64,000 nucleotides of DNA, taken from NCBI RefSeq assembly GCF_900460345.1, contig NZ_UHHW01000002.1:2170001-2234000 (forward strand), written 5' to 3'. The notes below the pieces were generated by a model. The model ran no database searches. It saw only the letters and a list, made by a program, of their open reading frames with translations, and was not told the origin of the DNA. A program made the position numbers and the translations under genes. Origin of the DNA: Trueperella pyogenes (GTDB lineage: Bacteria > Actinomycetota > Actinomycetes > Actinomycetales > Actinomycetaceae). This document shows, in pieces, positions 61,011 through 64,000 of the stretch (positions are counted from its first letter, which is position 1; each line of letters starts with the position of its first letter).

Positions 61011-61026
61011 CCGCTAGACTTTGCGT

Positions 61027-61821
61027 ATGCACGAGCTTGGAATCTCCTCTATTCATCCCGATGCCCCGGCGATGTTCTCGGCGGCCGCGATTATGCGCGC
61101 ACCCATAGACCTCGACGCCGCCGTCTCCCGCTTCGCCTCTCTCTGGGGAGAAAGCGTGGAGCCGAACTGGGAAGTAGTCGATGAGCGCGCCGGCGACGCC
61201 GGTCGGGTGCTTCACGTGAAGGTGGACGGCGTCCATGTGCTCCTCACCCCCGTGCCGCACGGCCTGGTGTTGAAAAAGGGTCAGCTGCCGTTGCACAACT
61301 TCCACGTGGCGGCCTCCTTCTACGCTCCCGATGATCCGGCGCCAGCCGACATCCCCTTGGGGCGTGAACTGCGGCGTCGTCACCTGATGGTGAAGGCTCA
61401 CACGGTGTTTACGCAGGTCATGGACGCTGTGATGCGCGAGACGGCGGCGATCGGGGTATATCGGGACGAGTTGGGCGTACTGATGCCTCCTGCGATGGTG
61501 ATCGGCCTGGCGGAACTCTTGACGAAAGGGCAGGCGCCGCTTCCGCTGTGGATCAATGTGCGGGTTCACCGCCACGACCTCACGTTCGGCCGCACGCTCG
61601 GTTTGACAAATTTCGGGCATCTGGATGTGCAGGTGCGCGAATCGACGCGCTCGGAGGAGGAGGTCTACAACTTGCTGATGAACGTGGCCAACTATGTGGT
61701 GACGGGCGAGACCTACCTGCTGCCCAGTCAGACGCTTGGCTACGCCGAGGGTCAGGAGATCGCTATCTCGCAGGAAGTCTCCGAAGCTGATGGCGCAACA
61801 GTGATCCGACTCGACTTTTAG
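61027..61821 (+). CDS. DUF4261 domain-containing protein
   Basis: 264 aa, soluble. The DUF4261 pattern is seen in 'HAAHTVF'-type ('VKAHTVFTQVMDAVMRETAA'), 'GVLMPPAMVI', 'PLPLWINVRV' and 'GLTNFGHLDVQVRES'. Role unknown; members are common in Actinobacteria and near immunity genes. ATG 61027 has no ribosome site, so it may be leaderless. A GCCGCGC-CT-GCGCGGC hairpin (61824-61839) follows the stop. Confidence 0.75.
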   Translation: MHELGISSIHPDAPAMFSAAAIMRAPIDLDAAVSRFASLWGESVEPNWEVVDERAGDAGRVLHVKVDGVHVLLTPVPHGLVLKKGQLPLHNFHVAASFYAPDDPAPADIPLGRELRRRHLMVKAHTVFTQVMDAVMRETAAIGVYRDELGVLMPPAMVIGLAELLTKGQAPLPLWINVRVHRHDLTFGRTLGLTNFGHLDVQVRESTRSEEEVYNLLMNVANYVVTGETYLLPSQTLGYAEGQEIAISQEVSEADGATVIRLDF

Positions 61822-61950: not shown

Positions 61951-62640
61951 GTGCTCATTGCAATTGGCGGAATGATCGGCGTCGGAAAAACCCTGGCCGC
62001 GAATCTCATCGCTGACCACCTAGACGCTCCGCTTCACCTGGAAAGCGTCGAAGGCAACGTCATCCTCGAGAAGTTCTACACGGCCACGCCCGAAGAAGAG
62101 CAAGCCAAGCGGTACCCGTTCCTGTTGCAGCTCGCATTCTTGAACTCGCGCTTTTCCGATATCAAGCGCGCCCTCGAATCGCGGCACGCCGTACTTGACC
62201 GCTCCATCTACGAGGACTGGTATTTTGCCCGCATCAACACCGACCTCGGCCGAATCTCCGAACTGGAGTTCTCCCTGTACGAGAACCTGCTGGCCAACAT
62301 GATGGAGGAGCTCGAGTTCTTCCCTAAGAAGGCGCCCGATCTTTTCGTATTCCTCCACGCCGATTTCGACACGATCATCAACCGCATCTCCCGGCGGGGT
62401 CGCGACTTCGAGCAAGACGCTTCTCAGCTGGCCTACTTCCACCGTCTGTGGGAGGGCTACCGCGACTGGGTGGAAAATCGCTATCACGAGTCGCCGGTCC
62501 TTGTCTTCGATACCGACCGCTACGACCTCAGCGATCCGGAAAGCCAGCGCCTTTTGCTGGAGCTGGTCGACCAGAAGTTGGCCGAGTCCGCGCTAGCCGA
62601 CGCCGAGTGCCCGGTGCCCACGGTAGCCGCCGTGCGCTGA
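61951..62640 (+). CDS. Deoxynucleoside kinase
   Basis: 229 aa from GTG 61951, 8 nt after GGAG. P-loop 'GGMIGVGKT', 'LDRSIYEDWYFARI' (DRS) and LID region 'INRISRRGRDFEQ' match the dCK/dGK family. It phosphorylates deoxynucleosides for salvage. An in-frame GTG/TTG at 61942/61945 overlaps the ribosome site. The nucleotidase and HD hydrolase in the window would also feed nucleoside salvage. Confidence 0.92.
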   Translation: MLIAIGGMIGVGKTLAANLIADHLDAPLHLESVEGNVILEKFYTATPEEEQAKRYPFLLQLAFLNSRFSDIKRALESRHAVLDRSIYEDWYFARINTDLGRISELEFSLYENLLANMMEELEFFPKKAPDLFVFLHADFDTIINRISRRGRDFEQDASQLAYFHRLWEGYRDWVENRYHESPVLVFDTDRYDLSDPESQRLLLELVDQKLAESALADAECPVPTVAAVR

Positions 62641-62680
62641 GCGTGATGGCTGACGGTGTCGTGAAGCGATCTGCGGGTGC

Positions 62681-62822
62681 TATGATGTCTCGCGGACGTG
62701 CGAGCGATCCGCGTCCCGCCTCGCCCGCGACCGCGGTCGACGGCGCGCCTGGGTAGTGGCAGTGCCCGGCGGATTCTCGCGCGCTGACTTCAGTCCTTTG
62801 CGCGCGCTCACGAAAGGACATC
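62681..62822 (+). promoter_or_regulatory. Promoter and structured leader of the YhhQ gene (candidate riboswitch)
   Basis: Extended -10 (TGC-TATGAT, -10 hexamer at 62681-62686) gives a leader of about 130 nt. Near the start codon, stem A pairs 62778-62784 with 62800-62806 (7 bp) and stem B pairs 62793-62799 with 62813-62819 (7 bp). Stem B includes the AAAGGAC ribosome site. The two stems interlock as an H-type pseudoknot with loops of 8, 0 and 6 nt. Upstream are an alternative stem (62691-62696 with 62708-62713) and a GGGTA/TGCCC hairpin (62751-62767). Confidence 0.6.
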
Positions 62823-63515
62823 ATGACTGCCACCCCTTCGCACAGCCACGACGCCGCCCAGCTGACCCCCGCCACGTATGCGCCGATCCGGCGCGGTTAT
62901 TACGACTATTTCGCGGTTTTCTTCGTCTCCTTCCTCCTGCTGTCCAACATCGGGGCGACCAAGCTTGTGGAAGTTGGCCCTCTGACCTTCGACGGCGGCG
63001 CCATCCTCTTCCCGCTGACCTACATCATCGGCGACGTCCTGTCCGAAGTGTACGGATTTAAGGCGGCCAAACGGGCGATCTTTATGGGCTTCGTGATTTC
63101 CTTCCTGGCGTCTCTAACGTTCTGGCTGATCATCATGCTGCCCGCCCATCCGGACTACACGAGCCAGGCCGCCTTCGAGGAAGTCCTCGGCGTGGTGTGG
63201 CGCTTTGTGGCGGCGTCGTTGGCCGGATACCTCGTGGGCCAGCTGCTCAACGCGAAAGTTCTCACCGCGATCAAGGACCGCTGGGGAGAAGAGCACATGT
63301 GGGCGCGCCTCGTGGGCTCGACCCTCGTCGGCGAGGCTGCCGACACAATCATCTTCTGCCTGGTGGCCTGGGTAGGCGTGATGAGCTGGGCCGTGATCGC
63401 GAACCTCGCCCTGGTTGGCTTCTTGTATAAAGTGGCTGTCGAGATCGTTTTCCTGCCGCTGACCTACCTGGTCATCAACCTCGTCAAGAAGCACGAACCC
63501 AATTACCGGAAGTAG
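62823..63515 (+). CDS. yhhQ: Queuosine precursor transporter (YhhQ/VUT family)
   Basis: 230 aa, six membrane segments; 'LLLSNIGATKLVEVGPLTF', 'FPLTYIIGDVLSEVYGFKAA' and 'LVGEAADTIIFCLVAWVGV' are the family hallmarks. It imports preQ0/preQ1 or queuine. tgt starts 3 nt after the stop, so the two form one transcript for queuosine in tRNA. The ribosome site AAAGGAC at 62813-62819 is embedded in the leader structure. Confidence 0.92.
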   Translation: MTATPSHSHDAAQLTPATYAPIRRGYYDYFAVFFVSFLLLSNIGATKLVEVGPLTFDGGAILFPLTYIIGDVLSEVYGFKAAKRAIFMGFVISFLASLTFWLIIMLPAHPDYTSQAAFEEVLGVVWRFVAASLAGYLVGQLLNAKVLTAIKDRWGEEHMWARLVGSTLVGEAADTIIFCLVAWVGVMSWAVIANLALVGFLYKVAVEIVFLPLTYLVINLVKKHEPNYRK

Positions 63516-63518
63516 CAC

Positions 63519-64000
63519 ATGTTTAGTCTCGAACACCGCCTCGCGGGCACCCTCGCCCGCACGGGCACCATTCACACCCCGCACGGCGACATCCGTACCC
63601 CCGCCTTTATCCCCGTCGGCACCAAGGCCACGGTCAAGGCCACCCTGCCCGAGTCGGTCAAGGAGGTGGGCGCGCAGGCCGTGCTCTCGAATGCCTACCA
63701 TCTGTACTTGCAGCCGGGCTCCGACGTCGTGGACGAAGCTGGCGGGCTGGGTGCATTCATGAACTGGGACGGGCCCACCTACACCGACTCCGGCGGCTTC
63801 CAGGTGATGAGCCTCGGGTCGGGATTCAAGAAGGTGCTATCGGAGGAGTTTTCGGGGAAGGCGATGGCAGACGACGCCGTGGCACCCGGCAGGGAGCGGC
63901 TCGCGAATGTGGACGACGACGGGGTGTGGTTCCGCTCCCACCTCAACGGATCCAAACACCGCTTCACCCCCGAAATATCCATGCGCATCCAGCATGAACT
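63519..64000 (+). CDS. tgt: Queuine tRNA-ribosyltransferase, 5' part (partial)
   Basis: Runs off the right edge; 160 codons are visible. 'DIRTPAFIPVGTKATVKATL', 'NAYHLYLQPG' and 'YTDSGGFQVMSLG' (Asp 90) are Tgt signatures. It swaps guanine 34 in Asp, Asn, His and Tyr tRNAs for queuine or a precursor. The catalytic Asp and zinc site lie beyond the window. Pairing with the YhhQ gene supports the call. Confidence 0.95.
   Translation, partial: MFSLEHRLAGTLARTGTIHTPHGDIRTPAFIPVGTKATVKATLPESVKEVGAQAVLSNAYHLYLQPGSDVVDEAGGLGAFMNWDGPTYTDSGGFQVMSLGSGFKKVLSEEFSGKAMADDAVAPGRERLANVDDDGVWFRSHLNGSKHRFTPEISMRIQHE

Follow-up and report, generated by a model that had tools for sequence, protein, structure and literature searches.

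The yhhQ leader of Trueperella pyogenes contains a structured RNA element whose hairpins P1 and P3 have conserved loops and covarying arms, and whose relatives in Actinomycetaceae likewise stand before the queuosine precursor transporter gene yhhQ. Comparison across leaders establishes the hairpins, their covariation, the exclusive link to yhhQ and selection for a complement of the P3 loop at the start of the coding sequence. We are highly confident that the element is a genuine cis-regulatory RNA and, within the reach of the Rfam and literature searches, a new one. In its best reading it is a candidate queuine riboswitch lying outside the classes preQ1-I, preQ1-II and preQ1-III.

Conserved hairpins in the yhhQ leader

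The window, i.e. the whole stretch of 64,000 nucleotides analysed here, carries yhhQ (QPTR) at 62823..63515 of the plus strand (TIGR00697, 127.8 bits; PF02592). On the same strand it is followed by tgt (63519..64000, continuing past the window end), which encodes tRNA-guanine transglycosylase (TIGR00449), as a preliminary description of this DNA had recognized. A leader of ~130 nt, which includes the Shine-Dalgarno (SD) sequence AAAGGAC (62813..62819, plus strand), lies between yhhQ and a deoxynucleoside kinase gene (PF01712, 61942-62640). The latter separates the leader from a gene for a DUF4261 protein (61021-61821); in several relatives (L003, L004, L007 and L041) the end of the DUF4261 gene seems, by eye, to lie directly 5′ of the yhhQ leader. 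No intrinsic terminator was found at the locus. The hexamer TATGAT at 62681..62686 (plus strand) is a likely −10 element, from which the transcript would begin just 5′ of the first hairpin; a sigma-70 consensus scan found no promoter at these positions. Among the 44 leaders with hairpin P3 (see below), 35 have a TANNNT motif at most 15 nt upstream of the first hairpin, compared to 2-3 of 44 in segments further up, and this proximity suggests that the element opens the transcript.

P1 (62694..62716, plus strand), with arms GGACGTG and CGCGTCC and the loop GAGCGATC at 62702-62709, is recognized by its loop conservation and covarying arms. Of the 44 P3 leaders, 23 have P1 ahead of P3, with the loop GAGYGAUY (21 leaders) or GGGCGACY (2), and GAGYGAUY occurs in a single one of the 88 leaders without P3. 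P2 (62717..62745, plus strand), predicted with P3 enforced, is a variable hairpin between P1 and P3, and P2-like hairpins were seen by eye in the same place in several other P1-bearing leaders. P3 (62746..62771, plus strand) has one bulged base and the 7-nt loop GUGGCAG (62756-62762), and is supported by covariation and by model R1; the R1 match in the window (62743-62775, 40.2 bits, E-value = 1.2e-6) involves a sequence that is itself part of the model. Short forms of the leader retain P3 only, which is a small size for an aptamer.

To collect leaders, YhhQ was searched for in 213 Actinomycetaceae genomes and was present in 128; with four order-level leaders this gave 132 loci, outside which remain two order matches and a second copy from genome G008. 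GTGGCAG lies within −420 to +30 nt of the match start in 49 of the 132 leaders. Five of these (L015, L021, L079, L087 and L116), in which no hairpin was seen around the motif, were set aside, as were second matches in L037 and L040. P3 is thus found in 44 of the 128 family leaders and in none of the four order-level ones, while 77 of the 128 have neither P3 nor the GGGCAG loop variant described below. Counts of the motif GTGGCAG are 51 over the 132 leader stretches (450 nt each) and 11 within yhhQ coding sequence (59,400 nt). Model R1 was built from 34 of the 39 distinct hairpins; those of L010, L018, L025, L042 and L066 were left out because the usual bulge was missing, the closing base pair was different or the hairpin was misaligned.

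Pairing holds in 82% of cells of the alignment of 34 P3 hairpins, and its covariation score of 0.487 exceeds that of slid pairings (0.08-0.15) and of shuffled alignments (0.271), none of 500 of which reaches the observed value. Both-sided changes are seen in seven of the nine pairs, a count not beyond that of the shuffles (mean 5.7; 94 of 500 as high). Arms also pair better with their own partners than with re-dealt ones: 6.4 of 7 versus 4.5 for P1 (22 distinct) and 7.6 of 8 versus 6.3 for P3 (39 distinct), with none of 2000 deals reaching the own-partner value for either hairpin.

Distribution and specificity

Searched against the 213 family genomes, R1 yielded 40 matches with E < 1e-3, every one on the same strand, 6-243 nt before a yhhQ match; they come from 39 genomes, G008 being hit twice, and the next match among those listed scores at most 26.9 bits. 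Since most of the matched sequences were used to build R1, their scores prove little, and it is the exclusive position before yhhQ that counts. The five P3 leaders missed at this threshold are the five left out of the model. The two yhhQ loci of G008 (G008:C1:14764-15429 and 2431605-2432270) have equal scores and lie near both ends of one contig, and probably represent the overlapping ends of a circular chromosome in the assembly.

On the YhhQ tree P3 needs five changes, and within one supported clade (100/93) it is present in 41 of 43 rows. As for the two exceptions, G129 has a six-base loop version and in G119, judged by eye, yhhQ lies directly behind another gene. Schaalia-type (g10) and Gleimia-type (g24) yhhQ leaders have no P3, and Rfam gave no match in the five leaders of these types that were scanned (L020, L050, L055, L022 and L101). 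An Rfam search at E ≤ 1 of 20 loci, out of the 88 in which exact P3 is missing, returned only a tRNA.

In a class sample of 394 genomes (own included), 92 had an R1 match at E ≤ 0.05. The best outsiders, at 31.2 (G446) and 30.6 bits (G304), fall within the range of true members (30.5-41.7 bits); the class sample brought 30 loci, of which the sequence of six was viewed. An order sample of 347 genomes (family members included) gave 16 matches at E ≤ 0.005, nine of them from the family, before yhhQ, and seven others, the best of which reached 33.5 bits (G716). The flanks of these seven are GC-rich and coding-like, with no yhhQ seen by eye. The matches in the class sample are likewise scattered and coding-like in their surroundings. 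These comparisons indicate that P3 is likely restricted to Actinomycetaceae.

Complementarity between the P3 loop and the start of yhhQ

Codons 2-4 of yhhQ in the window contain CTGCCAC (62827..62833, plus strand), the exact reverse complement of the 7-nt P3 loop. At least 5 nt of this 7-mer are present in the start region of 25 of the 44 P3 leaders and of 12 of the 88 leaders without P3. The 7-mer ranks first of 210 letter permutations unweighted and ninth of 210 when weighted by genus, most of the better-ranking permutations in the latter case being shifts that share letters with the loop complement. With an earlier, wider start region, it was found in 23 of 44 P3 leaders and 18 of 88 others. 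The 8-letter target CTGCCACC, chosen after the 7-letter one, is the complement of GGUGGCAG, i.e. of the loop consensus plus the closing G, which is replaced by A in six leaders, the window included. At least 5 nt of this 8-mer occur in 35 of 44 P3 leaders versus 16 of 88 without P3, and it ranks first of 336 same-letter permutations (65th in the controls). Among 46 gene starts in the window, five have at least 5 nt of the 8-mer, with yhhQ having 8 and one other 7. Nine of the 44 P3 leaders lack a complement of at least 5 nt, and four of these come from group g50 (four of its five).

Codon choice is the strongest of the comparative tests of this complementarity. Start codons were assigned by script, or by hand in L034, L036, L041, L042 and L084. 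Of 50 leaders (44 with P3 and six with the variant loop), 24 (L041 and L042 among them) encode a protein beginning Met-[Thr/Ser/Pro]-Ala; they come from six genera and thus amount to far fewer than 24 independent cases. This protein start is seen in none of 82 leaders with neither hairpin. In 22 of the 24, codons 2-3 read NCU-GCC: codon 2 is NCT in 22, compared to a T-ending share of 11% for the corresponding codons elsewhere in these genes, and the alanine codon is GCC in all 24, against a background of 42%. What varies is the opening base of codon 2 and hence the amino acid (Thr, Ser or Pro); CUGCC is mostly constant. Because the leaders are related, with only five P3 changes on the YhhQ tree, these counts lack independence, and the codon test's binomial p-values overstate the case.

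A separate lineage (g25, six genomes) has a hairpin with the loop GGGCAG and covarying arms (cacttg/caggtg, cgcgtg/cacgtg, cacctg/caggtg and cgcttg/caagcg). Its genes start with AUG-NCUGCCC, so that CTGCCC matches the altered loop, in five of the six genomes, and with CTGCCA in one. A hairpin scan with the core GGCAG retrieved 8 of the 88 leaders; since other permutations of GGCAG retrieve up to 10, the scan alone is not significant, and it is the covarying arms and matching starts that count. In L029 and L124-L128 a long shared block (tacgcgccgtagaggtagtgagagcgtcg and near versions) follows the GGGCAG hairpin, which suggests that this second version contains additional structure.

In 35 of 42 leaders (two leaders longer than 330 nt were excluded from folding), the minimum free energy (MFE) fold has the P3 loop paired to the start region, compared to 116 of 504 folds when the starts were swapped for those of leaders without the hairpin. 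Species-specific pairing is not supported, since loop-start pairs from the same leader barely outdo those dealt across genera, which were as good in 747 of 5000 deals. With P3 enforced, the fold lies a median of 7 kcal/mol above the MFE (1.6 kcal/mol in the window), which fits either two competing states or P3 and loop pairing within one knot. By comparison across leaders, then, the loop complement at the start is under selection. The codon pattern in 22 of 24 leaders, together with CTGCCC in five of the six g25 genomes, supports translational control by loop-start pairing, and we consider it probable that the element acts on translation in this way.

A pseudoknot burying the SD sequence

The preliminary description had singled out an H-type pseudoknot of interlocked, abutting stems that hides the ribosome-binding site of yhhQ, and this structure withstood scrutiny. 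Stem A (62778-62784, CGCGCGC, with 62800-62806, GCGCGCG) and stem B (anti-SD 62793-62799, GTCCTTT, with SD 62813-62819, AAAGGAC), both on the plus strand, are perfect 7-bp helices with no bases between the 5′ strand of stem B and the 3′ strand of stem A, and the whole SD sequence of yhhQ (ATG at 62823) lies inside stem B. When the last 14 nt (SD) were fixed and the 76 nt upstream were shuffled with dinucleotides kept, both stems reached at least 7 bp in none of 2000 shuffles and at least 6 bp in one. Among 46 roughly called gene starts in the window, a knot with stems of at least 6 bp is found at one, that of yhhQ itself. Folding with a nested model, which excludes pseudoknots, finds the stability of the leader unremarkable (z = −0.18).

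The same description had placed the knot at the core of the element. By eye, it is present in three of the nine leaders of the genus (G000, G007 and G001); G005, G006 and G008 keep a hairpin at the site without an anti-SD strand, and the platforms of G002, G003 and G004 are unrelated to it. A pseudoknot as the conserved core is rejected on this count. The covariation in relatives to which the preliminary description had looked is present, mainly in the upstream hairpins P1 and P3; in the knot, both-sided changes affect two of the seven pairs of stem A and stem B is invariant, with 69 of 500 shuffles as good, three sequences being too few to weigh. In these alignments the pseudoknot is a local addition in the genus of the window, and the more deeply conserved element lies just upstream.

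Relation to known riboswitches

None of the Rfam 15 models of preQ1-I, preQ1-II and preQ1-III matches the window at the gathering threshold, in keeping with the earlier remark that the leader does not resemble the preQ1-I consensus. At E ≤ 10, Rfam returned for 62600-62900 only a sub-threshold line for Proteo-phage-1 on the minus strand. The closest parallel is preQ1-I type III, which in Pseudomonadota controls yhhQ through an H-type pseudoknot burying the SD sequence, according to sections of PMC11625349. The same source gives a conserved UC or AC ahead of the 3′ strand of P1 for preQ1-I. Taking stem A as this P1, we find UU in the window, GC in G007 and UC in G001 and hence, unlike in type III, no conserved AC. 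Nor is loop 3 A-rich (CTCACG in the window, CCCACG in G007, ATCTCG in G001). The present element further differs from type III in that its knot is an addition to an upstream two-hairpin element and that QueA and QueG were not found in its hosts. With preQ1-III it shares a sensing part set apart from a separate SD pseudoknot, but preQ1-III is described before queT and from Ruminococcaceae (PMC11625349, in part). With preQ1-II it shares the association with a queuosine-precursor transporter gene and an SD sequence in a pseudoknot, without matching its Rfam model.

Like riboswitches in general, the element is a conserved structured leader tied to one metabolic function, with an expression platform that, by comparison, reaches the start site. 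In translational riboswitches and other leaders masking the initiation region, alternative pairing decides access to the start. Here, unlike in such leaders generally, the conserved hairpin loop itself would pair with codons 2-4 and not with the SD sequence. Three preQ1 classes, and none for queuine, are described in the sections of PMC11625349 considered. In the literature searched, outside which most subscription journals fall, no description of a queuine riboswitch was found and the phrase 'queuosine riboswitch' appeared once; nothing was found there for an Actinomycetaceae riboswitch, an Actinomyces queuosine riboswitch or an Actinobacteria YhhQ preQ1 riboswitch, and for Trueperella together with queuosine a tumour-microbiome review came up.

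Candidate ligand and alternative explanations

QueA was detected in none of the 213 family genomes and QueG in none of the 44 P3 genomes tested, with both searches positive in 9 of 14 control genomes. In view of the missing QueA, queuine is likelier than preQ1 to be both cargo and signal, and the absence of both enzymes fits direct queuine salvage. In line with this, parts of PMC11130926 name the same reason for a prediction of queuine salvage in most gut Actinomycetota. The printed Tgt sequences of P3 genomes (e.g. L001, L007, L016 and L049) have the pocket loop GIGGALEK, which differs from GGLAVG of E. coli and from the queuine signature GG[LS][AS]G given in sections of PMC11570991, and may represent a third type of Tgt specificity. 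On balance, the chances that the element is a riboswitch for a queuosine precursor at all are about even, and the identification of that precursor as queuine is tentative.

The most serious competitor is that the hairpins are protein sites, bound by an RNA-binding regulator or by Tgt in autoregulation, with loop-start pairing as the default state which the protein changes. Protein sites could well take the form of a pair of short hairpins whose loops are conserved and whose arms are free, and P3-only leaders exist; all 44 fetched P3 loci contain, on the same strand, a Tgt-like frame with the motif [ST]GG[FYW]Q, compared to 68 of the 88 others. The 7-nt loop, having U in second and A in sixth position, also resembles an anticodon loop. 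Tgt, however, requires U-G-U in the loop, and P3 reads U-G-G in all 44 leaders, as the search demanded, and the variant G-G-G. Overall, we regard protein sites as rather unlikely.

Somewhat less likely still is a ligand-free element of translational control or mRNA stability, thermosensor-like or imposing a fixed low expression, in which the pairing merely tunes initiation. No ligand is needed for the loop to complement the start or for this to influence folding; yet, if only pairing mattered, loop and start would be free to drift together, and R1 revealed no further loop version positioned like P3 among the 88 other leaders (best score 14.7 bits), the hairpin scan adding only GGGCAG. Besides, the start often matches just 5 of 8 letters, and the conserved loop of P1 would be left without explanation.

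The preliminary proposal of a new preQ1-sensing class has, apart from the type III parallel, the following on its side. Bartonella with the same gene set, only Tgt and QPTR, uses preQ1 and has traces of it in tRNA, according to parts of PMC11570991, and the actinomycete Bifidobacterium breve likewise appears to take up preQ1 and insert it (PMC11130926, in part). In the present hosts, too, preQ1 may be the end product. Given the failure to detect QueA in the 213 and QueG in the 44 genomes and the lack of an Rfam preQ1 match, preQ1 as the natural ligand is not supported, and this alternative appears improbable. A DNA operator of a transcription factor, suggested by an inverted repeat near a promoter-like element, is hardly credible, because the arms vary freely yet stay complementary and the spacer is conserved, the reverse of what an operator would show, the site lies downstream of the −10-like element, and the start-codon complement follows the loop.

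Proposed mechanism and implications

Under the favoured reading, the yhhQ-tgt mRNA would begin with P1 (loop GAGYGAUY), the variable P2 and P3 (loop GUGGCAG). The P3 loop would pair just after the AUG, with CUGCC-AC or, for the loop GGGCAG, with CUGCC-C, clamping the start codon and presumably controlling translation; in three genomes of the window's genus the SD-burying pseudoknot would have been added. A small molecule bound by the conserved loops would decide whether the P3 loop is free or start-bound. This molecule may be queuine, the base which these organisms most likely import, and YhhQ and Tgt would be produced when it is scarce. We give such a queuine-binding translational switch slightly less than an even chance. 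The fuller proposition, that it is the first queuine riboswitch, with an aptamer loop doubling as the switching strand that clamps codons 2-4, a trace of this in synonymous codons and a knot added later, is possible but more doubtful.

Even without a ligand, the element stands as a well-delimited regulatory RNA that Rfam does not include. If the proposed mechanism is true, it adds a switch in which a single loop serves as signal reader and as cover of the start codon. Queuine is a micronutrient which eukaryotes take up but do not make, and which they share with their bacteria. If queuine sensing is true, the element would show how host-associated Actinomycetaceae ration queuine, and would provide a natural queuine sensor.
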